Assembly (NCBI GenBank): GCA_020054475.1
Contig: JAHWGJ010000012.1
Coordinates: 1-46,610, forward strand
Length of the DNA stretch: 46,610 nt
Reading direction: 5' to 3'
From: Thermoplasmata archaeon
GTDB lineage: Archaea > Thermoplasmatota > E2 > DHVEG-1
Made by a program: the position numbers and the translations under genes. Positions 18,422 to 38,086 of the stretch are shown here, one piece after another. Every line of letters begins with the position of its first letter. The first letter of the stretch is position 1. The notes beneath the pieces are model-generated. The model was given only the letters and a program-made list of their open reading frames with translations. It made no database searches and was not told where the DNA came from.

Positions 18422-21400
18422 TTATTTGAATTTCCTTGGAGAAATGATAAATCCATTTTTTGTTTTTCTCCATTGTCCCCATTTTTTTAGGATAGGGGGT
18501 AATATTATTATTGAAGTGATGTATGAATAAATTATTGTCATTGAAGTTATTATTCCAAATTGCTGTTCAGGCGGCATTGGAGCTAATATAAGTATGCCAA
18601 AACCTGCTGCTGTAGTAAGTGCTGCAATAAATAATGCACTTCCGGTATGGCGTATAGTTGCATTTATTGCCTTATCAACGTTTCCACTTAAATCTGCTGT
18701 TAATCTAAATCTTTGTGTTGCGTGTATAGAATAATCAATACCTATACCTATGGTCAGACTAGTTACCATTATTGTCATGATATTAAATGAATAACCCATA
18801 TAGAAAATTGAACCTATTATCCATATTAGACAAATTATTACTGGTAATATTGCTATTAAACCAAGTAATGGATTTTTAAATACAATCATTAGAACTAATG
18901 CTGCTAAAATGATTGATATGAAAGTTGAAATTATTTGGCTTTCTGTCATTGATTTTAATATAGTAAATAATGAAGAATGATAGCCGGTTACTATAGAATT
19001 GGTATAACCATAATTTGTGATATCTTGATTTAATTGTGTATACACTATTTCCATTTGTTTATTAGTATCAATATCATTTTCTTCTGAATAAATAATACTT
19101 GTATAAATTCTAATAATTGTGGAATCATATATTTCACCATTATAATGCAAAACACTTTGAGTCTCAAATTTGTATAATTCAGTATTATAGAGATAATCAA
19201 AAATTCGTATAACATCCATATTTGTTCGGGGAATACCATTTGCATTAATATTATAATCATTTCTTAGGGTTGAATTTTCCTTTATTGCTTTTCTAATCAG
19301 TGAAAGAATCGATGTTGCTTTAGGATTACCTAAAGGATCTTTAGTAACATAAGTATCATCTTTGAAATTTTTAAAAGTTTTATCAATTCCTATTAAAGTG
19401 TCAATAGTAGCAACATTTCCATCAATTAAAATATATTCTTCTGTTTCACTTGCATATGGAAATATTTCTCCAATATCTATCCATAATTTCATTGATTCAT
19501 TTTCTTCAGGTAAAAAATCATTCATATCAAAAGTAGTTTGAACCTGAACAGCACCGATAATCATTATTGATGTGAAAAAAACTGAAAATATTAAAATAAA
19601 TAATCGCCTTTTTAATACAAATTTAGAAATTTTATCCATACTTTTTTCTAAAGTAATTTTTTTTCTATTATTGATAAAGGAAAATTCTTTTTTATTTCTA
19701 TCCAAAATATATCTAAAAGCGGCTTGTATTGTGATAGCAGTAATAAAAGTATAAACTATTCCAATTGCGCAGAGTAATCCAAAATCTCTTAATGGTGGTA
19801 CGCTAGCAGTTAGAAATGATAGAAAAGCTATAACTGTTGTCAAAGTTGCAAGAAACATGGCTAAACCCACATCTTTAATTGATGTAATTATAGCTTTTCC
19901 CGGCGTATTACCTTTTTTTAATTCAGTTCGATAATTGTGAAATAAATGAACTGAATAATCGACACCTAAACCCATTAACAAAGGTACAAGGGCTACGGTC
20001 ATAGTATTAAAACTCATTCCAAGTAAAACCATTGTTCCAAAGATCCATATCATAGATATACTGAGACTAACTAAGGGTAGAATAACATATGAAAGACGTT
20101 TAAACATGAAAAAAAGTATTAAACATATTACGACAAATATTCCCGGAATAATAATTATATTCGCGTCCTCAGTAATCTTATTTAATTCATTTGATATTAT
20201 TGCATTTCCTGTTGCTTTTAATTTAACGTGAAATTCTCGATTATCGCTGTTTTCCAATATATTCACAATTTCCTCACTTGTTTTTCTAATCTCCCCCATC
20301 TGGTGTTTTGCTTTATTCAACTGTACTATTATAAGAGTTGCTTTTGGACCAGATTTCTGATCATAATCTCCAGATAATAAAATCAAAGATGTTGATCTTA
20401 ATTGTTCAAGAAAATAAGGTTGATAGAAAAAATTTATTTTAGATTTATCTTCATTTGGAGCGATATCTAAATTTTCCCATCCATATTCAATATCTTTTAA
20501 AGAAATACTTTCTTTTTCAAAATCCACGTTTTCTAATAAATCAAATAGTTCATTGATATCTTCCCATGAGAAATCTGCAAATTGATTTAATAATTTATTT
20601 GAAATAGATTTGATTAACGGTTTGTTTTGTATTTTTTCAATAAAATTCTGGAGATAAGTAATGTTTACTGTTAACCGTGACCAAGGTTTATTAAAAATTG
20701 GATTTTGATAAATTCTTACCCCCGCTTGGGTTTTTCCAATTTTAGCCGGTATTTCTATATTATTGATTCTGGGTGAAATTCCATAGGCGGATAGTTCTTT
20801 TTTATCTATTTCAATATTAATTCTGTTCTCTTTAAAATTAAAATCTATATTTCCTGTTTCTAATAGTAGGGGAAAAGAAAAATCCTGATCTAAGGTTTTT
20901 ATCCAGAGATAAGCATTTGTTTTGTATGTGTCTGATAATTGTCCTTTACGAATATTATTTATTATATTTTTAATATTTTTAAATAATCCATCTCCGATTT
21001 CCCAGATGGGATATTTAGGTTCCACATGAGCTGAAATGTGATATTCAAGATCTAATCGTTTATCTGGAACTATTAGATTTTTAAAATTAATATACCATTC
21101 CCATGTGTTAATTTTCCTGTGGGGGGATGATATTTCATTTTTAAAATATGATAAATTATAAACTTCTATTGAGAAAATAAATGTTTCATTTGTTGTTTTA
21201 ATAAAATAATTTTTTATATCTAGACTATCTATAGATTTTCCTTCTGTTAATTTTGGATAGGGGTTATAATCAATTTTTTCATTATTATCATCTGATTCAA
21301 TCATAGATATTTCATTATTTTGGATATCCGATAGGAGATCTTTGTATGTATTTTCTATTTGCTCATCTGAACAGTTCATTATTGAATTTCCATATTCGAT

Positions 21401-21748
21401 TTGGCACAATATGTCTATAAATCCAACAAGGCTTACCGTCATATTAATTTCTTCAACTTTTTCAATATCCTTTATTATTCTATATTCCTCTTTTAATGAT
21501 TCAGGAGTTATTACATTAGCAGAATTTTGTCTTTCTACTAATATCATTATTACTTCTCCTATATTTCCAAAATCATCTATAATCTGTAGATTTGCATTAA
21601 CTATATTACTGTCGGGATAGAATTCTTCTGCTGTTGTTTCCATTTCAAGAGAAGGAATTAATAATGAGAAACCAATGGTTATTGTTAGGATGGTTATTAC
21701 AACTATCCATGGTTTTTTTTCAATAAAAAATCCAAGTTTTTCTAGCAT
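18422..21748 (-). CDS. Large MMPL/RND-superfamily membrane transporter
   Basis: The 1108-residue protein has the RND layout in two halves. Each half is one membrane helix, a long outside loop, and a group of five helices. The diagnostic MMPL motif appears twice: LMGLGVDYSVHLFHNYR in the first half and LTIGIGIDYSIHATQRFR in the second, each with Asp-Tyr near the proposed proton path. The first outside loop is very long (about residues 35-520). Archaeal and bacterial HAE3-type relatives export lipids, hopanoids or other hydrophobic compounds using the proton or sodium gradient. The substrate here is unknown. No accessory subunit lies next to it. The ATG has no strong ribosome site but follows a clear AT-rich promoter region. 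Confidence 0.85.
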   Translation of the reverse strand: MLEKLGFFIEKKPWIVVITILTITIGFSLLIPSLEMETTAEEFYPDSNIVNANLQIIDDFGNIGEVIMILVERQNSANVITPESLKEEYRIIKDIEKVEEINMTVSLVGFIDILCQIEYGNSIMNCSDEQIENTYKDLLSDIQNNEISMIESDDNNEKIDYNPYPKLTEGKSIDSLDIKNYFIKTTNETFIFSIEVYNLSYFKNEISSPHRKINTWEWYINFKNLIVPDKRLDLEYHISAHVEPKYPIWEIGDGLFKNIKNIINNIRKGQLSDTYKTNAYLWIKTLDQDFSFPLLLETGNIDFNFKENRINIEIDKKELSAYGISPRINNIEIPAKIGKTQAGVRIYQNPIFNKPWSRLTVNITYLQNFIEKIQNKPLIKSISNKLLNQFADFSWEDINELFDLLENVDFEKESISLKDIEYGWENLDIAPNEDKSKINFFYQPYFLEQLRSTSLILLSGDYDQKSGPKATLIIVQLNKAKHQMGEIRKTSEEIVNILENSDNREFHVKLKATGNAIISNELNKITEDANIIIIPGIFVVICLILFFMFKRLSYVILPLVSLSISMIWIFGTMVLLGMSFNTMTVALVPLLMGLGVDYSVHLFHNYRTELKKGNTPGKAIITSIKDVGLAMFLATLTTVIAFLSFLTASVPPLRDFGLLCAIGIVYTFITAITIQAAFRYILDRNKKEFSFINNRKKITLEKSMDKISKFVLKRRLFILIFSVFFTSIMIIGAVQVQTTFDMNDFLPEENESMKLWIDIGEIFPYASETEEYILIDGNVATIDTLIGIDKTFKNFKDDTYVTKDPLGNPKATSILSLIRKAIKENSTLRNDYNINANGIPRTNMDVIRIFDYLYNTELYKFETQSVLHYNGEIYDSTIIRIYTSIIYSEENDIDTNKQMEIVYTQLNQDITNYGYTNSIVTGYHSSLFTILKSMTESQIISTFISIILAALVLMIVFKNPLLGLIAILPVIICLIWIIGSIFYMGYSFNIMTIMVTSLTIGIGIDYSIHATQRFRLTADLSGNVDKAINATIRHTGSALFIAALTTAAGFGILILAPMPPEQQFGIITSMTIIYSYITSIIILPPILKKWGQWRKTKNGFIISPRKFK

Positions 21749-29051: not shown

Positions 29052-30059
29052 TTAAAATATATTTAGAAATTCTAATTCTTTACTAAATATAGTTAAAAAA
29101 GCAAATCCTAGAGCGAAGAAAATATATTCTACATACATAATTGACCAAGCATGAATGTTTTCTAAGGTTTTACTTTCTTTATCACCTTTGATCATAAGAT
29201 AAAATATTATCAGAGATGCGAACATAAAAAATGTTAATGGCCAGTAATAAATAGCTATTATATCTATGTTGATCATTAGTGGAATAATTATAAATGGGAA
29301 AAACATAAATGGTAATGAAATAAATGCAGCCATTTTTATTCCATAAGTATTAACTAGGGTATGAACTCCAGTGAGTTTATCAGCTTTACTATCAACAATA
29401 TCTTTTGTTGACATGCCGCCAATTAGAAAGATTGTTGCTATTATACCCATAATTAATGGTAATCTTTGGAAAGGATCTCCGAAGACACTCCAACTGGCTA
29501 AAATTCCAAATAAACCTCTAGGTATTGCTATCCATATTTGATTTAAAAAAAGAAATTTTTTTGTTCTTGGCGGGAGTGAATAAGTTATAGTGAATATCAT
29601 TATTAGGAAAATAAATGTTCCAAACCATGCATTTATTGTAACTGCTCTTAATAAAGCAAATAAGTAAAATATATATGCTAGACTCTGTGCTTCCTCTGGT
29701 TTAATTATTTTTTGAGGTATTGGACGATATGGTTTGGATATCATATCTCCTTCAAAATCAGTAGCTTGATTCAATGCATTAGATGCTGCATTTACTAGTG
29801 CAATTGTTAAACTAGCATTTCCAACTGTTATCCACCAGTCTGTGGGAATTTCTAAACCAAAAAAACGAAAATTGTATACTAAACTTGCTACTATTATTGA
29901 CATTGAAACAATGATTGGTGCTAATAAAGTGAATGGTCTTAGAAGATCAAGGTAACCTCTGATATGGTCTGAAAAGAACCTTTTTTTTCTATAAGGTTCT
30001 TTCATTGTTAATTTACCGAATGATATATTTTTGTCCATTTCAGGTTCAATCATCGACAT
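29052..30059 (-). CDS. UbiA-family prenyltransferase
   Basis: The 335-residue protein has about eight membrane helices and both Asp-rich motifs of the family. NALNQATDFEGDMISKPYRP at about residues 85-104 is the first (NxxxDxxxD), and STKDIVDSKADKLTGVHTL is the second. These bind prenyl diphosphate through magnesium. The YRPIPQKII stretch and the second motif are closer to chlorophyll-synthase/DGGGP-synthase-like members than to the other three UbiA genes here. It may make the second ether bond of archaeal lipids or prenylate another acceptor; sequence alone does not decide. It is the last gene of a minus-strand run with the CrtI-like, reductase and second UbiA genes (gaps of 44, 44 and 13 bases). 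Confidence 0.82.
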   Translation of the reverse strand: MSMIEPEMDKNISFGKLTMKEPYRKKRFFSDHIRGYLDLLRPFTLLAPIIVSMSIIVASLVYNFRFFGLEIPTDWWITVGNASLTIALVNAASNALNQATDFEGDMISKPYRPIPQKIIKPEEAQSLAYIFYLFALLRAVTINAWFGTFIFLIMIFTITYSLPPRTKKFLFLNQIWIAIPRGLFGILASWSVFGDPFQRLPLIMGIIATIFLIGGMSTKDIVDSKADKLTGVHTLVNTYGIKMAAFISLPFMFFPFIIIPLMINIDIIAIYYWPLTFFMFASLIIFYLMIKGDKESKTLENIHAWSIMYVEYIFFALGFAFLTIFSKELEFLNIF

Positions 30060-30103
30060 CGAGTATCATTCTTTCTATTAAATGTTTTTTCATACTAATA
30101 TAT

Positions 30104-31495
30104 TTATTTTTTTGATAGGTGTTCTACTAGATCTCTAGCAGAATTTAATGCACAATTGAATCCTATTCCTGTTGCTTTTACGCTATCTCCAACTATGAAT
30201 AGATTTTTTATTGGTGTTTTTATATCAGGTTTTTCATTTTCAATTGTTTTTGCTACTCCATCAAGATGCCATATTGCGGGGTATATTGCCCAATTCAAAT
30301 TTTTTTTATAATCTGGAATAATTATCTCAAGATTTTTATCAAGTAAAATTTTTAATTTTTTAAGTATTTCAAAATTTTTTGCTTCATCAGGATTACAAAT
30401 GATATAAGATTGTACAATAAATTTATTTTTAGGTGCAATTCCTGAATCCGGGGATGATGCCATGAAATCTATCATTCCAACAGTATCATTTCCATCTATT
30501 CCAATATTTCTTTCAATAAAATGAAAAGTTTTTCCAATTAATTCTTTATCTAATTTATTGAGAGAATAATATGCACATAAACTTCCTGTGCCTTTAAGAG
30601 ATTTAATATTTTTAGTATAATCTTTTGGGAAATTTTTTTCGTCTACAATTTTGAATAAGTCTTGGACAAGAGTGTTTGAAATTACAATATCTGAAAGATA
30701 TTTTTTATTATCAACTATTACTCCTTTTGTTTTTTGTTTTTCAATTATTATTTTTTTAACTTTTTTGTTTAGATAAATTTTCCCACCGTTTTGTTTTATA
30801 TAGTCTGCTAGTTTTTCAGTAATGCTTTCTAATCCATTTTTTGGATAACCTACTGGTTTTGATCCTCGATATAAATTTCTTTGTGAGCGGAACATTTCAC
30901 CTGTTGATATTAAATCAAGGTTGTTAATGGTTGTAATTGAACGTGAAAAAATTTCTAAAATTAATTTCATTTTTCCTCGCCCGTATTTATTTATTGTTTC
31001 TGTTATTGATATGGGGTCAAGTTTTTTTAGTGTTTTTTCACTTACTAATAGAAGTCTTAATATGTTAGGAAAAATTTTTATTTTATCAATTTTTGATAGG
31101 AATGGAAATACGTATTCGTTTTCTTTGATTAATCCAACGTAGGATTCTAATATATCTACATGATTATTTAATTCTGCTAGAACTGAATTTGCATTAGATA
31201 ATACTCCTCCACCGATTGCGTGATAGCCGAGATCTAATTTATATCCTAATAATTTTTTTTTTTCAAAAATTGTTTTTAATTCAGGTTCTGAAAATGGTAT
31301 CATCATGTTATAATTTGATAGTATTTTTAGATATGAATCAATTGTCAAATTTGATGTGTTAAATGATAAAGCTCTTCCTCCTATTAATGATTCTTTTTCA
31401 AAGATTATTACTTTAAAACCTTTTTTTGTTAATAAAGCACCTGCAGTTAATCCACCTATACCTGATCCAATTATTATGATATCCTTTTTTTTCAT
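30104..31495 (-). CDS. CrtI/phytoene-desaturase-family FAD oxidoreductase
   Basis: The 463-residue protein opens with the FAD-binding motif IIIIGSGIGGLTAGALLTKK then FEKESLIGGRA. YRGSKPVGYPKNGLESITEK at about 217-236 and the C-terminal NLFIVGDSVKATGIGFNCAL complete the family pattern shared by phytoene desaturases, carotenoid isomerases and retinol saturases. It probably removes or adds hydrogens, or isomerises double bonds, on a long polyprenyl chain. No phytoene synthase lies in the window, so a carotenoid substrate is not proven. The next gene upstream is the geranylgeranyl reductase, 44 bases away. Confidence 0.8.
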   Translation of the reverse strand: MKKKDIIIIGSGIGGLTAGALLTKKGFKVIIFEKESLIGGRALSFNTSNLTIDSYLKILSNYNMMIPFSEPELKTIFEKKKLLGYKLDLGYHAIGGGVLSNANSVLAELNNHVDILESYVGLIKENEYVFPFLSKIDKIKIFPNILRLLLVSEKTLKKLDPISITETINKYGRGKMKLILEIFSRSITTINNLDLISTGEMFRSQRNLYRGSKPVGYPKNGLESITEKLADYIKQNGGKIYLNKKVKKIIIEKQKTKGVIVDNKKYLSDIVISNTLVQDLFKIVDEKNFPKDYTKNIKSLKGTGSLCAYYSLNKLDKELIGKTFHFIERNIGIDGNDTVGMIDFMASSPDSGIAPKNKFIVQSYIICNPDEAKNFEILKKLKILLDKNLEIIIPDYKKNLNWAIYPAIWHLDGVAKTIENEKPDIKTPIKNLFIVGDSVKATGIGFNCALNSARDLVEHLSKK

Positions 31496-31539
31496 AATTT
31501 TAACACTTTGATATTTTATTTAGGCTATTAAAATTTTTA

Positions 31540-32754
31540 TTAATATCTATTTTTTAATTTATCACGGAATACACAGTAAAGATAACGTCTTATTAGTTTC
31601 CATCTTGTTTTATAAATACTAATATTTCCACTTGCTATGTCCATTAATAATTCAGATAGTTTTTCATCCTTGCAGACATGTTTTATGAAATCTTCATTTT
31701 CTGAATTCCATAATCTCGCTGATTTTAAAAATAATTTCAAATCTTTTCCAAATTCTTTTTTCCATTTTCTTTCATAATTTGATAGGAATTCTGATTTTAG
31801 ATTATTATTTTCAAATGCTTTATTTATTGTTTCGGCAGCCATTTTAGCTGAATCCATGGCATAGAAAATACCTTCGCCAGTAAAAGGATTGGCGAAACCT
31901 GCTGCATCACCTACTATTAGTAATCTATCTGAATATGTTTTCTCTAAAGGATAATTAGGTATTGCTGCTCCCTTTATTTTATTGATATTTAGATCTTTAG
32001 GAATAAGTTCAGATTCTTTAAGTAATTTAATATATCTTTCGATAATTGATTTTAAATTTATCTTACTTTTTTTATTATCTTTATCTAAATTAATTTCGCC
32101 TATTCCAATGTTAATATGGTTTTTTTTTGGAAAAACCCAACCGTAACCTGATATTCCAAATAATTTTAAATGCATTATTCCATTTCTTTTTTGAGAGAAA
32201 TATTTATTCATTTTTTCGTATTTCATTGATGACTCAGAATATAGAGAGATGCTCACATTTCTTTTACCTTTAATTAAGCCAGTTTTTTTTGCAGTTGTAC
32301 TGAATACTCCATCTGCTCCTACAATTATATCTGATTCAATTTTTGTTCCATCATTGAATATTATTAATCCTTTTTTATTTGATATCTTTAAATCAATTGT
32401 TTTTTTCCCATCAATGAATTTTGTTCCATTATTTACAGCTAGTTTTACTAGATCATGATCAAATTTTTTTCTGATAACCATCCCTAATATTGGTTTGGTT
32501 TTTTTTATTTGAACTCTATATTTGAGAGATGAGGAATATATAACTCCGCCGTATGTATATGATTCAATTAAATCCTCATCTTTTAAGTATTGAAATTTTT
32601 CAAAAATTTTTATTGGTAATCCTCCACCACAAGGTTTATCCCTAGGGAATTTAGATTTATCTGTTAATATAACATTGTATCCCTTTTCAGAGAGGTTTTT
32701 TGCAACTGTGGAACCTGCAGGGCCCGCTCCAATTATTGCAACATCATATTTCAT
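31540..32754 (-). CDS. Geranylgeranyl reductase-family flavoprotein
   Basis: From ATG 32754 the protein has 404 residues. MKYDVAIIGAGPAGSTVAKN is the FAD motif, KPCGGGLP at about residues 42-49 is the geranylgeranyl reductase signature, and LLIVGDAAGFANPFTGEGIF near 285 closes the FAD site. A ribosome site AAAGGGAAA precedes this ATG. Family members saturate geranylgeranyl chains of archaeal lipids or of chlorophyll. The gene ends 44 bases before the CrtI-like gene and starts 13 bases after the stop of the UbiA gene upstream, so the three form one unit. Confidence 0.85.
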   Translation of the reverse strand: MKYDVAIIGAGPAGSTVAKNLSEKGYNVILTDKSKFPRDKPCGGGLPIKIFEKFQYLKDEDLIESYTYGGVIYSSSLKYRVQIKKTKPILGMVIRKKFDHDLVKLAVNNGTKFIDGKKTIDLKISNKKGLIIFNDGTKIESDIIVGADGVFSTTAKKTGLIKGKRNVSISLYSESSMKYEKMNKYFSQKRNGIMHLKLFGISGYGWVFPKKNHINIGIGEINLDKDNKKSKINLKSIIERYIKLLKESELIPKDLNINKIKGAAIPNYPLEKTYSDRLLIVGDAAGFANPFTGEGIFYAMDSAKMAAETINKAFENNNLKSEFLSNYERKWKKEFGKDLKLFLKSARLWNSENEDFIKHVCKDEKLSELLMDIASGNISIYKTRWKLIRRYLYCVFRDKLKNRY

Positions 32755-32767
32755 GATATTTCCCTTT

Positions 32768-33775
32768 CTACATTCTTGGTTTAAACATTTTTTCTCCTGA
32801 TAAAGGAACAAAAATTATATACCACCCAATAGGAATTATAATTAAAATAATTGAGTATAATATTCCAATTGTTGAAATAAGCATTATTGGTACTAATGAA
32901 TATCTGATAAAAGATTGAATTGATATATATTTTTTAATAATATTTCTGTCAAAATTTTTCACATTTAACAATTTAAAATTGATGTATAACATAAATATTA
33001 TTCCTATAAATAAAATTGCTATTTGCCAATAGTAGAAGTTGATTCCATATAAAATGAAGGGAATTAATAATAATGATGATGAAAATATTCTTATTCCAAA
33101 ACTAAATACTTTAAACTTTTTTGGTATAATAATTTTTTTATCATTAACTGAAACGCCTAATTTTAATGCGATGTTTTTTACACCAAATTTTTTATCATGT
33201 TCCGCATCTTTTATTCCACCGTCTATTGCATTCATATGTAATAAATTGTTAAATGTTAATATAAAAATTATCCATATGAGAAGAGTTGATTCACCAATTG
33301 ATAATGCTCCAAAGAGAAAAACTAGTGAAACGGAGAGTGCAACAAGAATATCAGATCCGATAAAATCTTTACTATGGAAATCATATATGCTTCCTAAGAA
33401 CCAAGCAATTGAAATGGATATTGCTGCTGCAAATATGTGCCCTTCAATTAGTTTTCCATAAAATAATATAAATATTAATAAAAATTCAGAAATCACACAA
33501 AAGATGCAAATGCCTATAGCTTTTTTTTGAGATATTTTTCCGCTTACTAAAGGTCTTTCTTTTAATTCAAGAGATAGTTTATCTAATTCAATATCTATAT
33601 AATCATTTAATACAAAACCATATATGGCGGCTAGTGATCCTATTATAAATAATATTAATAATGTAAAAAAATCGATATTAGGGTTAACTGTTAATGCTCC
33701 GATTACAGGGGGGATTGCAAGGCCACCTAATCCAGGTATTCTTAGTAGCTTTATATAAGATGAAAGATTTGACAT
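32768..33775 (-). CDS. UbiA-family prenyltransferase
   Basis: A 335-residue membrane protein whose first motif is LNDYIDIELDKLSLELKERP followed by LVSGKIS. The second motif is MNAIDGGIKDAEHDKKFGVK. This motif pair is shared with the genes at 33872 and 37073, so the three are paralogues distinct from the one at 29052. All keep the Asp residues for binding prenyl diphosphate. The gene heads the minus-strand run and faces away from the paralogue at 33872; on the minus strand AAAATATAAAATATT lies about 30 bases before the ATG, suggesting a leaderless message. Confidence 0.8.
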   Translation of the reverse strand: MSNLSSYIKLLRIPGLGGLAIPPVIGALTVNPNIDFFTLLILFIIGSLAAIYGFVLNDYIDIELDKLSLELKERPLVSGKISQKKAIGICIFCVISEFLLIFILFYGKLIEGHIFAAAISISIAWFLGSIYDFHSKDFIGSDILVALSVSLVFLFGALSIGESTLLIWIIFILTFNNLLHMNAIDGGIKDAEHDKKFGVKNIALKLGVSVNDKKIIIPKKFKVFSFGIRIFSSSLLLIPFILYGINFYYWQIAILFIGIIFMLYINFKLLNVKNFDRNIIKKYISIQSFIRYSLVPIMLISTIGILYSIILIIIPIGWYIIFVPLSGEKMFKPRM

Positions 33776-33871
33776 TTTTTTTTTCTTAAATAACTGTTAA
33801 TATTTTATATTTTCTATCATATTTATTTTTATTATGATAAGTTTTTTAAATATTAAATAAATCATGTAAAT

Positions 33872-34903
33872 GTGAAATCTAAATTATCTTTAATTGAAAG
33901 AATAAGGGGGATAGCAGTTTTAATTAGAATTCAACAATTGGGGACATCTATAACTGCTGTTATTGGCGGATTAACAGTAAAGGGATTAGGTTTAGATTTT
34001 TTTGATTTTCTATTATTAATTCTTATAGGTATGATTGTTAATATTGGTGGTCAAGTTCATAATGATATTGTTGATTTTGATATTGATAAACATTCAAAGG
34101 ATTTGAAGGAGAGGCCTCTTGTTAAAGGTACTGTATCTTTTCAAACAGCAAAATTAATCATTTTATTATGTCTATTTTTGGTTTTTGCTTTAATTTTATA
34201 TTTTTTTCCAAATATTATTGCATTATTAACTATTATTATTTCATTCATATTTGGGGTACTTTATAATTTATATAGTAAGAAAATACCAGGTTCAGATTTG
34301 TTTTTGTCTCTTTCTTTGTCATTGTTTTTATTATTTGGTGCAATAGTGGTTACTGATAATTTTCAGGGTTTTAATGATATAGGATTGATAACTTGGATTG
34401 TTTTTGCCTTAACTTTTATACATGTTTTTCTTATGGATGCCTTAGGGGGCGGATTAAAAGATGCGAAAAACGATCGAGAAGCAGGAGCTAAAACTTTAGC
34501 AATTTTCTTGGGCGTTACTGCTAATGAAAAGTTGTATATTCCATTTATTTATAAGTTAATAATTTTATTATTTGAATTTTCTACAATTATTTTTGTTTTT
34601 ATACCATACTTTTTTCTTGATTTTGAATATTTAATTTTTCAGATGATTTTAATAATTATTTTAATTATTTTTATGGTTTTTTCTACTTTAAAATTATTAA
34701 ATGTTAAAACTTTTGATAGGAAAAAAATTAAGTATCATAATAGGAATCATGAGTTAGCTGCTTATGTTCTTGTACCTATTGTTTTATTAAATGTAATTGG
34801 TTTTTATTGGGTTGGTTTTTTAATTTTTTTCCCTATTGTTTGGTTTATTGTTTTTAATTATATTTTTTATAAAGATAGTTGGGTAAATCCAAAAAATTTT
34901 TAA
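33872..34903 (+). CDS. UbiA-family prenyltransferase
   Basis: A 343-residue membrane protein with NDIVDFDIDKHSKDLKERPL then VKGTVS at about residues 70-95, and LMDALGGGLKDAKNDREAGA at about 188-207. It is a close paralogue of the genes at 32768 and 37073. The start is GTG at 33872, with TTTTTAAATATTAA about 25 bases before it, fitting a leaderless start. It is the only plus-strand gene of the cluster. Its last 50 bases overlap the end of the convergent reductase gene at 34854. Confidence 0.8.
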   Translation: MKSKLSLIERIRGIAVLIRIQQLGTSITAVIGGLTVKGLGLDFFDFLLLILIGMIVNIGGQVHNDIVDFDIDKHSKDLKERPLVKGTVSFQTAKLIILLCLFLVFALILYFFPNIIALLTIIISFIFGVLYNLYSKKIPGSDLFLSLSLSLFLLFGAIVVTDNFQGFNDIGLITWIVFALTFIHVFLMDALGGGLKDAKNDREAGAKTLAIFLGVTANEKLYIPFIYKLIILLFEFSTIIFVFIPYFFLDFEYLIFQMILIIILIIFMVFSTLKLLNVKTFDRKKIKYHNRNHELAAYVLVPIVLLNVIGFYWVGFLIFFPIVWFIVFNYIFYKDSWVNPKNF

Positions 34904-36032
34904 TTATTTTTTTTTTTAATATTTCAATTTTCTTAATATCTTTTTCAAGTAATTTTGTAATTTGATTTTGATAAAAATTTGGTATTATTTTATTTAATAT
35001 ATTTATTGTTGAAAATAATCTATTAAAGGTTTTGTTATATTTTTTAGTTGATGTTAATTTACTTTTATTTATATATGTTTTTTTTATTCTTTTCATTTTA
35101 TTTTGCATTAATTTTTGATAAATGTCTAATGATTTATTTTCTCCTTTTATATAGCCTGCTGCAGTTAATCCTGCTAGTGTACCTGAAAAAACAGCGTTGT
35201 GAATTCCAGCTCCTGAAGCGGGATCAACAAGTCTTGCTGAATCGCCTACAAACATTACATTATTTATAACAATGTTTTCTAAGGGTTTATACATTGGTTC
35301 ACAAGCTCTGAAAGTGTTGATAATTTTATATTTTTTATTCGTCATTAAATTTGTATATTTTTGAAGTAAGTTTTTTATATCTAATTTTTGACCTCCGATT
35401 ATTCCTATTCCAATATTTGATAATTCTTTATTTATTGGGAATAACCAGGCATATCCAGATGGGGCATAAGGTTCTCCCCACCACATATTCATTATATTTG
35501 GATTAGATTTACTTTGAATTCTGTGTTGTATGCATACTCCAATGTCTTCTGGTTTTAATTTAGTATTTATTCCTATTTGCTTACCTATTATGCATGATAT
35601 TCCGCTGGCATCGATTATTATTTTTCCTTCTATTTTCCTTTTATTATCCATTATTATTTCATTTGGCGGATTGAATTTTATCATTCTTCTGCCTAGAAAT
35701 AAATCCACATTTTTTTCTTCAGCTTCTTTTAATAGATCATTTTCAAGATAATTTCTATCTATAACGTATATCTTATCTTTACTTAGATTAATTGTATATT
35801 CTTTTGAATTGGTGATGTTTATTCTTATTTTTCTTATTTCATTTTTTGGGCATTTTCTCTCATCAATTTTTAATATATTTGCAGTAACATGTGATATTGC
35901 CTCGCCACAGTGAGCCGGTGTTAATGGTTTTTTATGGCGTTCAATTATTGCTACTTTAACTCCCTGGTTTACTGCGTTTATGGCTGCTATTGCTCCGGAT
36001 AGATTCCCTCCTATGATTATTATATCATACAT
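34854..36032 (-). CDS. Geranylgeranyl reductase-family flavoprotein (second)
   Basis: A 392-residue protein with the FAD motif MYDIIIIGGNLSGAIAAINA, the signature PAHCGEAIS at about 38-46, and MFVGDSARLVDPASGAGIHN near residue 270. It is more divergent than the copy at 31540 and has a Lys-rich C-terminal helix region. It probably reduces or hydrates double bonds in a polyprenyl product of the neighbouring transferases; the exact substrate is unknown. A GGTTGA site precedes the ATG. It follows the CrtC-like gene by 25 bases on the minus strand. Confidence 0.8.
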   Translation of the reverse strand: MYDIIIIGGNLSGAIAAINAVNQGVKVAIIERHKKPLTPAHCGEAISHVTANILKIDERKCPKNEIRKIRINITNSKEYTINLSKDKIYVIDRNYLENDLLKEAEEKNVDLFLGRRMIKFNPPNEIIMDNKRKIEGKIIIDASGISCIIGKQIGINTKLKPEDIGVCIQHRIQSKSNPNIMNMWWGEPYAPSGYAWLFPINKELSNIGIGIIGGQKLDIKNLLQKYTNLMTNKKYKIINTFRACEPMYKPLENIVINNVMFVGDSARLVDPASGAGIHNAVFSGTLAGLTAAGYIKGENKSLDIYQKLMQNKMKRIKKTYINKSKLTSTKKYNKTFNRLFSTINILNKIIPNFYQNQITKLLEKDIKKIEILKKKIIKNFLDLPNYLYKKYN

Positions 36033-36057
36033 TTTTCAACCATCTAGAAATATTTAT

Positions 36058-37056
36058 TTAGTTAAATTTTAAATATTCCATTATTTCAATATTATTAACT
36101 ATCTCTTTCTGATTGTTAATGGAGATATATCCTTTATTTTGTACATGGTATCTCCAGTAAGGTGCAGATAATACGCTGCTAAAATGAATATTTTTTACTT
36201 TTATTTCTATTTCAGCTTTTATTTCATTATTTCTTATTGTTTCATCTATTATTAATTTAAAATTTGTAGGCATTTTGCGACGATGATCTTTAATATATTT
36301 ATTTGTTTGAAAATGGATCTTTTTTGGATTTATATTATAGTATGAGTCCTGCTCTTTGCTTATTATTGCTAATAAATCTTGTTTATTTGATTTTTTTATT
36401 ACATTTGCCCATACAATATTATAATTTTTACTTCTAATTTTTCCCCAATACCATGCTTTGCCATAGGTTAATGCAGATAAAAAACTATAATTCCAGTTAT
36501 GATCATGATATCCTATTCCTTCAACGATCATTTTTTTTCCTTTTATTGTTATTTCACCTATTACCTCTGCTTTTGGTAAAGAAACTGTCCAACTCTCAGC
36601 ATTTGTTTCAATTTTAAATCCCTTTGTCAATCCTTTAAAAAATAGATTTATTTTAATATCGTTAATATTATAATTTATTTTATAGATCCATTGTTGTTTA
36701 TCTTTAAATTTATAATTATCAAATTCTATTATTGGATTATTAAATAATTTTATAATAGGAAATTCCTTTGATGTCTTAAAATTTTTTAATAAAAATCTTT
36801 TTCTTTTTTCTATTTCTAATATTCCATTATTATAGATTTCAATAAATGGAGATACTATTCCAATTTTTTTCCGGGATATTACTCTAAATCCAATATGTAT
36901 GCTATAATTATTGTTAAAAATCGCATCAAAATACCACCATTCAGCTGATATACGTTTTGGTGAGCCATGAAAAGCATCATCAGCTGGTGTTATATTTTCT
37001 ACTATATTGATTTTTTCACCCTTAGGTTTGTAATAATATAAAAATGTGATACTATT
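36058..37056 (-). CDS. CrtC/AttH-like hydratase-family protein (lipocalin-like), no conventional start codon
   Basis: The frame is open from 37056 to TAA at 36058, 332 codons. Two hallmarks of the CrtC/AttH family (carotenoid 1,2-hydratases and relatives) are present: SAEWWYFDAIF at about 36945-36910 and EGIGYHDHNWNYSF near 36520. Members have two lipocalin-like barrels and, in CrtC, add water to the end of a carotenoid without oxygen. No ATG, GTG or TTG precedes the EWWYFD motif. The only one, TTG at 36630, would leave 190 residues and lose the first barrel. GGGTGA at about 37016-37021 lies before ATC (37011) and ATA (37005), either of which may start translation. Alternatively an 8-A run at the end of the upstream gene hides a frame change. 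Confidence 0.65.
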   Translation of the reverse strand, partial: NSITFLYYYKPKGEKINIVENITPADDAFHGSPKRISAEWWYFDAIFNNNYSIHIGFRVISRKKIGIVSPFIEIYNNGILEIEKRKRFLLKNFKTSKEFPIIKLFNNPIIEFDNYKFKDKQQWIYKINYNINDIKINLFFKGLTKGFKIETNAESWTVSLPKAEVIGEITIKGKKMIVEGIGYHDHNWNYSFLSALTYGKAWYWGKIRSKNYNIVWANVIKKSNKQDLLAIISKEQDSYYNINPKKIHFQTNKYIKDHRRKMPTNFKLIIDETIRNNEIKAEIEIKVKNIHFSSVLSAPYWRYHVQNKGYISINNQKEIVNNIEIMEYLKFN

Positions 37057-37072
37057 TCAGTGTTTCTTTTTT

Positions 37073-38086
37073 TTACATTGTTTTTGGCTGTAATATTGTA
37101 CCATGTAAAATTATATTTGATAATATAAAGCCTAATGCTGGAAAGAAAACTAATAGTCCTGCCCATGGATTTAATGTCATTAGTAGTATTGGTACTAGGG
37201 CAAAATTTATTATGTAGTGACTACCGATATATCTCCTTGCTTTCTTTCTCTCAAATCGTTTCATAAATAATAATTTATATGATAGCAAAAGCATCATAAA
37301 TGCAATTATTGCAATGATTATCCATTGAAAATATTTTAAATTTTGATTTTGATTAATGAATAATGTTAATATTAAATAGGGAATATAAATTAATATTACA
37401 TTTATTATTTGAAGAAAATATGCAACTATTTTGAAGATATTTGATACGAATAATTTTTTTTCAGTAACTCTTACGCCCATCATTATAGCTGCAGTTTTTA
37501 CTCCTTTTTTATAATCATTTTCAATATCTTTCATTCCGCCTGCTACTATCTGCATATATAGAACTTGTATTGATCCTAGTAAACATACCATCCATGCTAT
37601 GGTTGTAATTTCAAATATGTTTGTTGTTACTGTTGAAGCTCCATATAATATGAAAAAGAATACTCCTATCGCTACGAATATGTCCATAAATGGTAATTTT
37701 TTACTGGTTAGATCATATATTATTATGAAAAGAGCAGACATTGCTAGTATAAAAATTGGGTAAAAATTCATTGTATAATATGCTAAAATGATGGCTATTA
37801 GAAAGGCGACTGTTATTGATGCAACGGAAAAAATCCATGCCCTTTTAAGGGTAATAGTTCCGCTTATAAGTGGTCTATCGCTTATTTCTTTTGATGTTTT
37901 ATCAATTTTATAATCGATTACATCGTTAAATACAAATCCAAATGTATGGCCAAGAAAACCTATTATGAATAGTATTAATAATGTTAAAATATGATATTCG
38001 CCCATTGCGATTGCTCCCATTACGGGGGAGATCCCTGTTAGAACTGCATTGAATGAGCGTGATAGTTTAAGATATTCTCTTATCAT
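37073..38086 (-). CDS. UbiA-family prenyltransferase
   Basis: A 337-residue protein of about eight membrane helices with FNDVIDYKIDKTSKEISDRP then LISGTIT (about 55-81), and MQIVAGGMKDIENDYKKGVK as the second motif. It is a paralogue of the genes at 32768 and 33872. It leads a minus-strand run into the CrtC-like gene (about 16 bases or more away) and the second reductase. Haloarchaeal lycopene elongase is also a UbiA member, so a role in elongating a carotenoid-like chain is possible, but archaeal lipid synthesis is equally compatible. Confidence 0.8.
   Translation of the reverse strand: MIREYLKLSRSFNAVLTGISPVMGAIAMGEYHILTLLILFIIGFLGHTFGFVFNDVIDYKIDKTSKEISDRPLISGTITLKRAWIFSVASITVAFLIAIILAYYTMNFYPIFILAMSALFIIIYDLTSKKLPFMDIFVAIGVFFFILYGASTVTTNIFEITTIAWMVCLLGSIQVLYMQIVAGGMKDIENDYKKGVKTAAIMMGVRVTEKKLFVSNIFKIVAYFLQIINVILIYIPYLILTLFINQNQNLKYFQWIIIAIIAFMMLLLSYKLLFMKRFERKKARRYIGSHYIINFALVPILLMTLNPWAGLLVFFPALGFILSNIILHGTILQPKTM

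Follow-up and report, generated by a model that had tools for sequence, protein, structure and literature searches.

Four UbiA prenyltransferases, two geranylgeranyl-reductase-family enzymes (GGR1 and GGR2), a CrtI-like flavoenzyme and a CrtC-like protein are encoded at positions 29,052-38,086 of a 46,610-nucleotide stretch of DNA (the window) from an uncultured Thermoplasmatota archaeon. This eight-gene set is a conserved cluster and not a chance grouping, because a UbiA gene lies no more than 1.5 kb from the CrtI ortholog in all 47 Thermoplasmatota loci with that ortholog, and the two genes share a strand in 45 of these loci. The synteny across these loci bears out the proposal of a preliminary description of this DNA that a single unit for isoprenoid modification, which proves to be conserved, is encoded here. 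We read the locus, with a probability of about 0.5, as a clade-specific isoprenoid-modification cluster for a polyprenylated membrane compound other than a carotenoid or a menaquinone, most likely one that derives from the ether-lipid pathway or a lipid of similar build. On this view, which we hold at roughly even odds, the enzymes would attach prenyl groups to a polar acceptor, probably one derived from glycerol, and would saturate part of the chain or rearrange it; certain species would also add water to it, with a tertiary alcohol as the result. The reading draws on gene content, synteny, phylogeny, motifs, a predicted fold and gene absences, and the substrate, the order of steps and the product are proposed on that basis.

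Distribution and layout of the cluster

The commonest gene order in relatives is UbiA4-UbiA2-(GGR)-CrtI-UbiA1. An ortholog of UbiA1 adjoins CrtI in most near relatives, and distant Thermoplasmata keep the UbiA2-CrtI pair alone (L104, L105, L108, L109, L111-L116, L118, L120). The GGR genes, including GGR1, and the CrtC-like genes are variable accessories, with a CrtC-like gene in 14 of the 47 loci. Repeatedly, the latter directly adjoins UbiA4, UbiA2 or C6a-type UbiAs, in varied orders and in several genera (L056-L062, L095, L099, L119). The CrtC-like gene does co-occur with the cluster, a point on which the preliminary description had made its idea of a single pathway depend: among 40 genomes of relatives, 25 of which carry the CrtI ortholog (hereafter carriers), 21 hold both genes, 4 and 2 hold one or the other singly and 13 hold neither (Fisher p 3e-5, uncorrected for kinship).

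Within the phylum, the CrtI ortholog occurs in 60 of 390 genomes, all 60 in one class; the cluster is kept across several families of this class and most of the phylum lacks it. The CrtI ortholog has named matches only in uncultured Thermoplasmatota or Euryarchaeota assemblies (e.g., SG8-52-3, ex4572_165, JdFR-43, CP070724), except for five distant ones in bacteria with 27-29% identity, and plasmid searches with UbiA2 and CrtI as queries returned no matches. Genomes with the CrtI ortholog contain a median of 10 UbiA genes (maximum 20), compared to 2 in relatives without it. The host genome, 1.68 Mb in size, 72% complete and including the window as contig C2, has 15. More generally, many genomes from the host's family have an enlarged UbiA complement of 8-20 genes, as opposed to 0-6 in most other relatives. 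In a genome of the same genus (G001, C150:1349-2728), the match to the CrtI ortholog is interrupted by an in-frame TAA, which may stem from an error in the assembly. A Pseudomonadota metagenome-assembled genome (L124:8918-11521) contains a CrtC-like gene, over the PF07143 cut-off, which adjoins a CrtI-like gene distantly related to the CrtI clade of the cluster.

The eight genes, strands and family labels of the preliminary description are all supported by the open reading frames and by Pfam and NCBIfam, the CrtC label only at the edge of the cut-off (Table 1). The CrtI-like gene is called as an Amino_oxidase/CrtI-type flavoenzyme. Two runs on the minus strand read, in the order of transcription, UbiA2-GGR1-CrtI-UbiA1 and UbiA4-CrtC-like-GGR2, with intergenic gaps of 10-44 bp. 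UbiA3 lies between them on the plus strand, and its 3' end overlaps that of GGR2 by 50 bp. For GGR1, the most probable start is the ATG at 32,757, and not a TTG further upstream.

Table 1. Genes of the isoprenoid-modification cluster, with positions in the window.
Gene	Position	Strand	Family and remarks
UbiA1	29052..30059	-	UbiA-superfamily prenyltransferase in a clade of its own; Asp-rich motifs DFEGD and DSKAD both intact
CrtI-like FAD (flavin adenine dinucleotide) oxidoreductase	30104..31495	-	Best-conserved gene of the cluster; distinct from carotenoid CrtI/CrtD
GGR1	31540..32757	-	Geranylgeranyl-reductase-family flavoenzyme, closest to the BchP/ChlP subfamily; TIGR02032 211.5 bits
UbiA2	32768..33775	-	Prenyltransferase; with CrtI the minimal conserved pair
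UbiA3	33872..34903	+	Divergent member of the UbiA2/3/4 superclade
GGR2	34854..36032	-	Geranylgeranyl-reductase-family flavoenzyme; TIGR02032 180.0 bits; paralog on contig C31 50% identical
CrtC-like	36058..37056	-	Predicted double-lipocalin hydratase/lyase; 332-codon open frame
UbiA4	37073..38086	-	Prenyltransferase; in relatives usually at the start of the cluster

Elsewhere in the window, an MMPL/Patched-type transporter with sterol-sensing-like domain matches is encoded at 18422-21748 on the minus strand, and in some relatives (L080, L082-L084, L098) a distance of about 2-4 kb separates its ortholog from the cluster. We do not argue for a link in which it would act as a lipid exporter, and nearby MetF/MetV-like and epimerase genes are ordinary shared neighbours.

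Enzyme families of the cluster

The four UbiA proteins score 87-107 bits on PF01040 (cut-off 34.2) and keep both the first (NxxxDxxxD) and the second (DxxxD) Asp-rich motif, and thus belong to the UbiA superfamily. In a tree of 110 rows, which was obtained by a quick search with support from the Shimodaira-Hasegawa-like approximate likelihood-ratio test (SH-aLRT) only and has long reference branches, UbiA1, UbiA2 and UbiA4 fall into supported clades (100, 99 and 100, respectively), and UbiA2, UbiA3 and UbiA4 belong to one superclade (96). LyeJ and CrtEb form a different clade (98), with the window UbiAs outside it, and the window clades are also separate from the group of digeranylgeranylglyceryl phosphate (DGGGP) synthases. 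None of the four lies in a DGGGP-synthase or quinone clade, a placement which the preliminary description had singled out for checking. The same description had set three of the UbiAs apart by a shared motif. Their grouping holds as the supported superclade, whereas the motif is not distinctive: ERPLVSG is exact in UbiA2 only, with ERPLVKG in UbiA3 and DRPLISG in UbiA4, and its special status is ruled out by near-identical motifs in the DGGGP-synthase-like copies of the host (DRPLVRG, NRPLSTG).

By similarity to proteins of known function, UbiA1 is closest to BchG/HPT-type enzymes. Other UbiA copies of the host are MenA-like (C30a, C12) or LyeJ-like (C30b, C6b, C12). The prenyl acceptor is reported to govern the grouping of UbiA enzymes (Hemmi et al., 2004, as cited in PMC9385802). 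Since the window UbiAs form unfamiliar clades of their own, this suggests that they may act on acceptors other than the characterised ones.

The CrtI-like enzyme scores 63 bits on the CrtID model (cut-off 640), and its clade is separate from the carotenoid CrtI/CrtD clade, with a support of 100 on both sides. By sequence, the solved structures closest to it are 3ka7, an oxidoreductase of Methanosarcina mazei, and 3nrn of Pyrococcus furiosus, both of which carry no stated function, with the CrtI structure 4dgk behind them. A fold search with a predicted model of the enzyme again placed 3ka7 first. Hydroxyarchaeol is reported to be made by a Methanosarcina CrtI homolog (Mori et al., 2015, as cited in PMC10821996); a tie of the window enzyme to this homolog, compared via 3ka7 only, may serve as a lead. 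Both GGR1 and GGR2 exceed the cut-off (158.8 bits) of the GG-red-SF model TIGR02032, and as members of the geranylgeranyl reductase superfamily they would be predicted to reduce prenyl double bonds.

The CrtC-like protein reaches 22.4 bits on PF07143 (cut-off 22.5). A 190-residue open reading frame found by start-codon search is a truncation, given that homology extends over about 325 codons of the open frame. The 5' half of this frame contains no ATG, GTG or TTG, the first such codon being located far downstream, at 36,630; near 37,005, ATC/ATA codons follow a GGTGA box. Translation may begin at a rare start codon, or the 5' sequence may contain an error.

An AlphaFold model of the CrtC-like protein, built from 43 homologs, has a high predicted local distance difference test score (pLDDT, 92.8) and adopts the double-lipocalin fold of CrtC and AttH, in line with the CrtC-type enzyme of the preliminary description. 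A Foldseek search with this model retrieved AttH (2ich, E 1e-12) and kievitone hydratase (7a0t, E 2e-11), and also Diels-Alderases and a 25-phosphosteroid lyase. In CrtC, His239, Trp241, Tyr266 and Asp268 are essential (R. gelatinosus numbering; PMC4717167). Trp149, Tyr176 and Asp178 of the CrtC-like protein align with the last three of these in a weak alignment (hhalign probability 32%) and are kept in 41-43 of the 43 homologs. Judging from the model, hydration would be the likeliest reaction, and not the sole possible one, because the fold is common to hydratases, lyases and cyclases. Among its known representatives, kievitone hydratase hydrates the prenyl side chain of a non-carotenoid (PMC5805349), and CrtC hydrates more than 20 C12-C20 terpenes (PMC12402844).

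Proposed pathway and alternative products

In the proposed pathway, UbiA2 and UbiA4, here also UbiA3, would transfer polyprenyl groups to at least one polar acceptor, and UbiA1, as a member of another UbiA clade, would catalyse a further transfer of a different kind. The CrtI-like flavoenzyme might then oxidise, isomerise or hydrate the chain, and one or two geranylgeranyl-reductase-type enzymes could saturate it in part. Where present, the CrtC-like protein may add water to a remaining isolated double bond, which would yield a tertiary alcohol. In some relatives, the products of nearby glycosyltransferase and sulfotransferase-like genes could decorate that hydroxyl. HpnB/CruG-like GT2 glycosyltransferase genes are found beside the cluster in L057, L060 and L095 (159-213 bits, under curated cut-offs), and sulfotransferase-like genes near it in three relatives, with a strong match in L095 and weak matches under the Pfam cut-off in L057 and L059. 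The window itself holds neither an HpnB/CruG-like glycosyltransferase nor a sulfotransferase-like gene. At two further sites of the host genome (L049:8361-9506, L052:862-2010), sulfotransferase-family genes lie near UbiA genes.

The window enzymes are extra to the standard ether-lipid pathway, because better candidates for DGGGP synthase and for digeranylgeranylglycerophospholipid (DGGGPL) reductase are encoded elsewhere in the host genome (C38 and C45, respectively). On the DGGGP synthase model PRK12882 (cut-off 296), the window UbiAs score 44-65 bits, compared to 179 bits for C38, which reaches 266 bits on PRK12884 (cut-off 269). The DGGGP synthase of M. jannaschii groups with C38 and C5c, and the window UbiAs do not qualify as DGGGP synthases. 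C45 scores 332 bits on NF041160, under the cut-off of 780.

For the product, the preliminary description had offered a C50-type carotenoid or a hydroxylated lipid chain, and the latter fits better. If the product were a bacterioruberin-like C50 carotenoid, the UbiAs would be lycopene elongases, the CrtI-like enzyme a 3,4-desaturase and the CrtC-like protein a hydratase, a gene set which parallels the haloarchaeal CrtI-elongase-CruF arrangement. All 8 relatives with phytoene synthase have the CrtI ortholog, and the host does possess the phytoene synthase that the preliminary description had not seen in the window and wished to see sought elsewhere. This gene is part of a separate, complete carotenoid cluster on contig C30 (L047:8625-12358), together with genes for a CrtZ-like member of the fatty-acid-hydroxylase family, for a lycopene cyclase and for a CrtI. 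The C30 CrtI scores 720 bits on the CrtID model, above the cut-off that the window enzyme falls far short of, and a search with it returned haloarchaeal, actinobacterial and Roseobacter reference genes. Just beyond the C30 cluster lies the UbiA gene C30b, which has some similarity to LyeJ. However, phytoene synthase over its cut-off is absent from 17 of the 25 carriers, among them two single-contig genomes and six that are at least 90% complete, and the probability that incompleteness alone hides it in all 17 is about 2e-17 (a simple product). This distribution already largely refutes a C50 product. Together with the UbiA and CrtI trees, in which the window proteins stay outside the LyeJ/CrtEb and carotenoid CrtI/CrtD clades while LyeJ-like copies sit elsewhere in the genome, it led us to reject the C50 carotenoid as highly improbable. 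The presence of CrtI- and CrtC-like genes in these genomes should therefore not be equated with carotenoids.

A prenylated quinone or another aromatic redox lipid, for which the UbiAs would prenylate an aromatic acid or quinol, the reductases would saturate the tail, as is known from saturated menaquinones, and the CrtI- and CrtC-like proteins would modify it further, is suggested by the nearest known functions of UbiA1 and GGR1 and by the MenA-like copies of the host. We nevertheless consider it unlikely: all 25 carriers lack MqnA/D (PF02621) of the futalosine pathway, nor does any of them have a MenD of the classical pathway over its cut-off, which disfavours menaquinone as the product, and the conserved neighbours seen at the cluster include neither a methyltransferase nor an aromatic-precursor gene. 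The locus might also combine several separate small functions, with the UbiA-CrtI pair serving one pathway and the second reductase, the CrtC-like protein and UbiA3 serving others as mere neighbours here. That UbiA2-CrtI alone is the minimal unit in distant Thermoplasmata, that the reductase and CrtC-like genes are variable and that many CrtC-like genes stand alone lend this some plausibility; the recurrence of CrtC-like genes beside UbiAs in differing orders and several genera, and their co-occurrence with CrtI, make it rather improbable, though still to be reckoned with.

Several observations also count against a single cluster acting on an ether-lipid-like compound. The CrtC-like gene, present in only a minority of the loci, is often found elsewhere in the genome and may serve another pathway, and the position of CrtC His239 is not conserved in its homologs. 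UbiA3 is on the opposite strand and has no clear ortholog among the loci examined. The co-occurrence statistics of the CrtI and CrtC-like genes ignore the relatedness of the genomes, and the confidence of the CrtI model is modest (pLDDT 70). Geranylgeranylglyceryl phosphate synthase, found in 37 of the 40 genomes and in all 25 carriers, is near-universal in these archaea and thus weak evidence for an ether-lipid acceptor.

On a broader and more tentative level, the UbiA expansion and the cluster may together make an undescribed class of membrane isoprenoids across a whole group of uncultured sediment Thermoplasmatota. Such a compound would be a multiply prenylated and partly saturated polyprenyl lipid, hydrated at an isolated double bond without O2, and certain species would further glycosylate or sulfate it. 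Sediment biomarkers in wide use are based on the membrane lipids of archaea. We know of no enzymes for many modified archaeal lipids, and of no description of the lipids of most uncultured archaea. The cluster supplies a small testable core, namely UbiA2-CrtI, followed by UbiA1, UbiA4, GGR and the CrtC-like protein.

Relation to known systems

The enzyme families are known, and their combination was not found described in the literature; a search for UbiA clusters in Thermoplasmatota, with subscription papers outside its scope, returned nothing relevant. The hopanoid and carotenoid glycosyltransferases HpnB and CruG are resembled only by the neighbouring GT2 genes of the three relatives named above, at scores below curated cut-offs. 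As in the haloarchaeal bacterioruberin pathway (CrtI, LyeJ, CruF), a UbiA gene adjoins a gene for a CrtI-family flavoenzyme and a hydratase is added, whereas here the UbiA and CrtI proteins belong to other clades, the predicted hydratase is CrtC/AttH-like and most carriers lack phytoene synthase. With the superfamily of CrtC, AttH and kievitone hydratase, the CrtC-like protein shares the predicted double-lipocalin fold and the conserved Trp, Tyr and Asp that align with catalytic CrtC residues; it differs in that the His239 position is not conserved, and has only 9-14% sequence identity to the solved members. The archaeal ether-lipid system, with DGGGP synthase, DGGGPL reductase and the Methanosarcina CrtI homolog for hydroxyarchaeol, employs the same UbiA, GGR and CrtI-like families, which are known to act on prenyl ethers. 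While the window UbiAs differ from archaeal DGGGP synthase by forming their own clades, far under the PRK12882 cut-off, they share with this system the intact Asp-rich motifs, and the nearest solved relative of the CrtI-like enzyme likewise comes from Methanosarcina.

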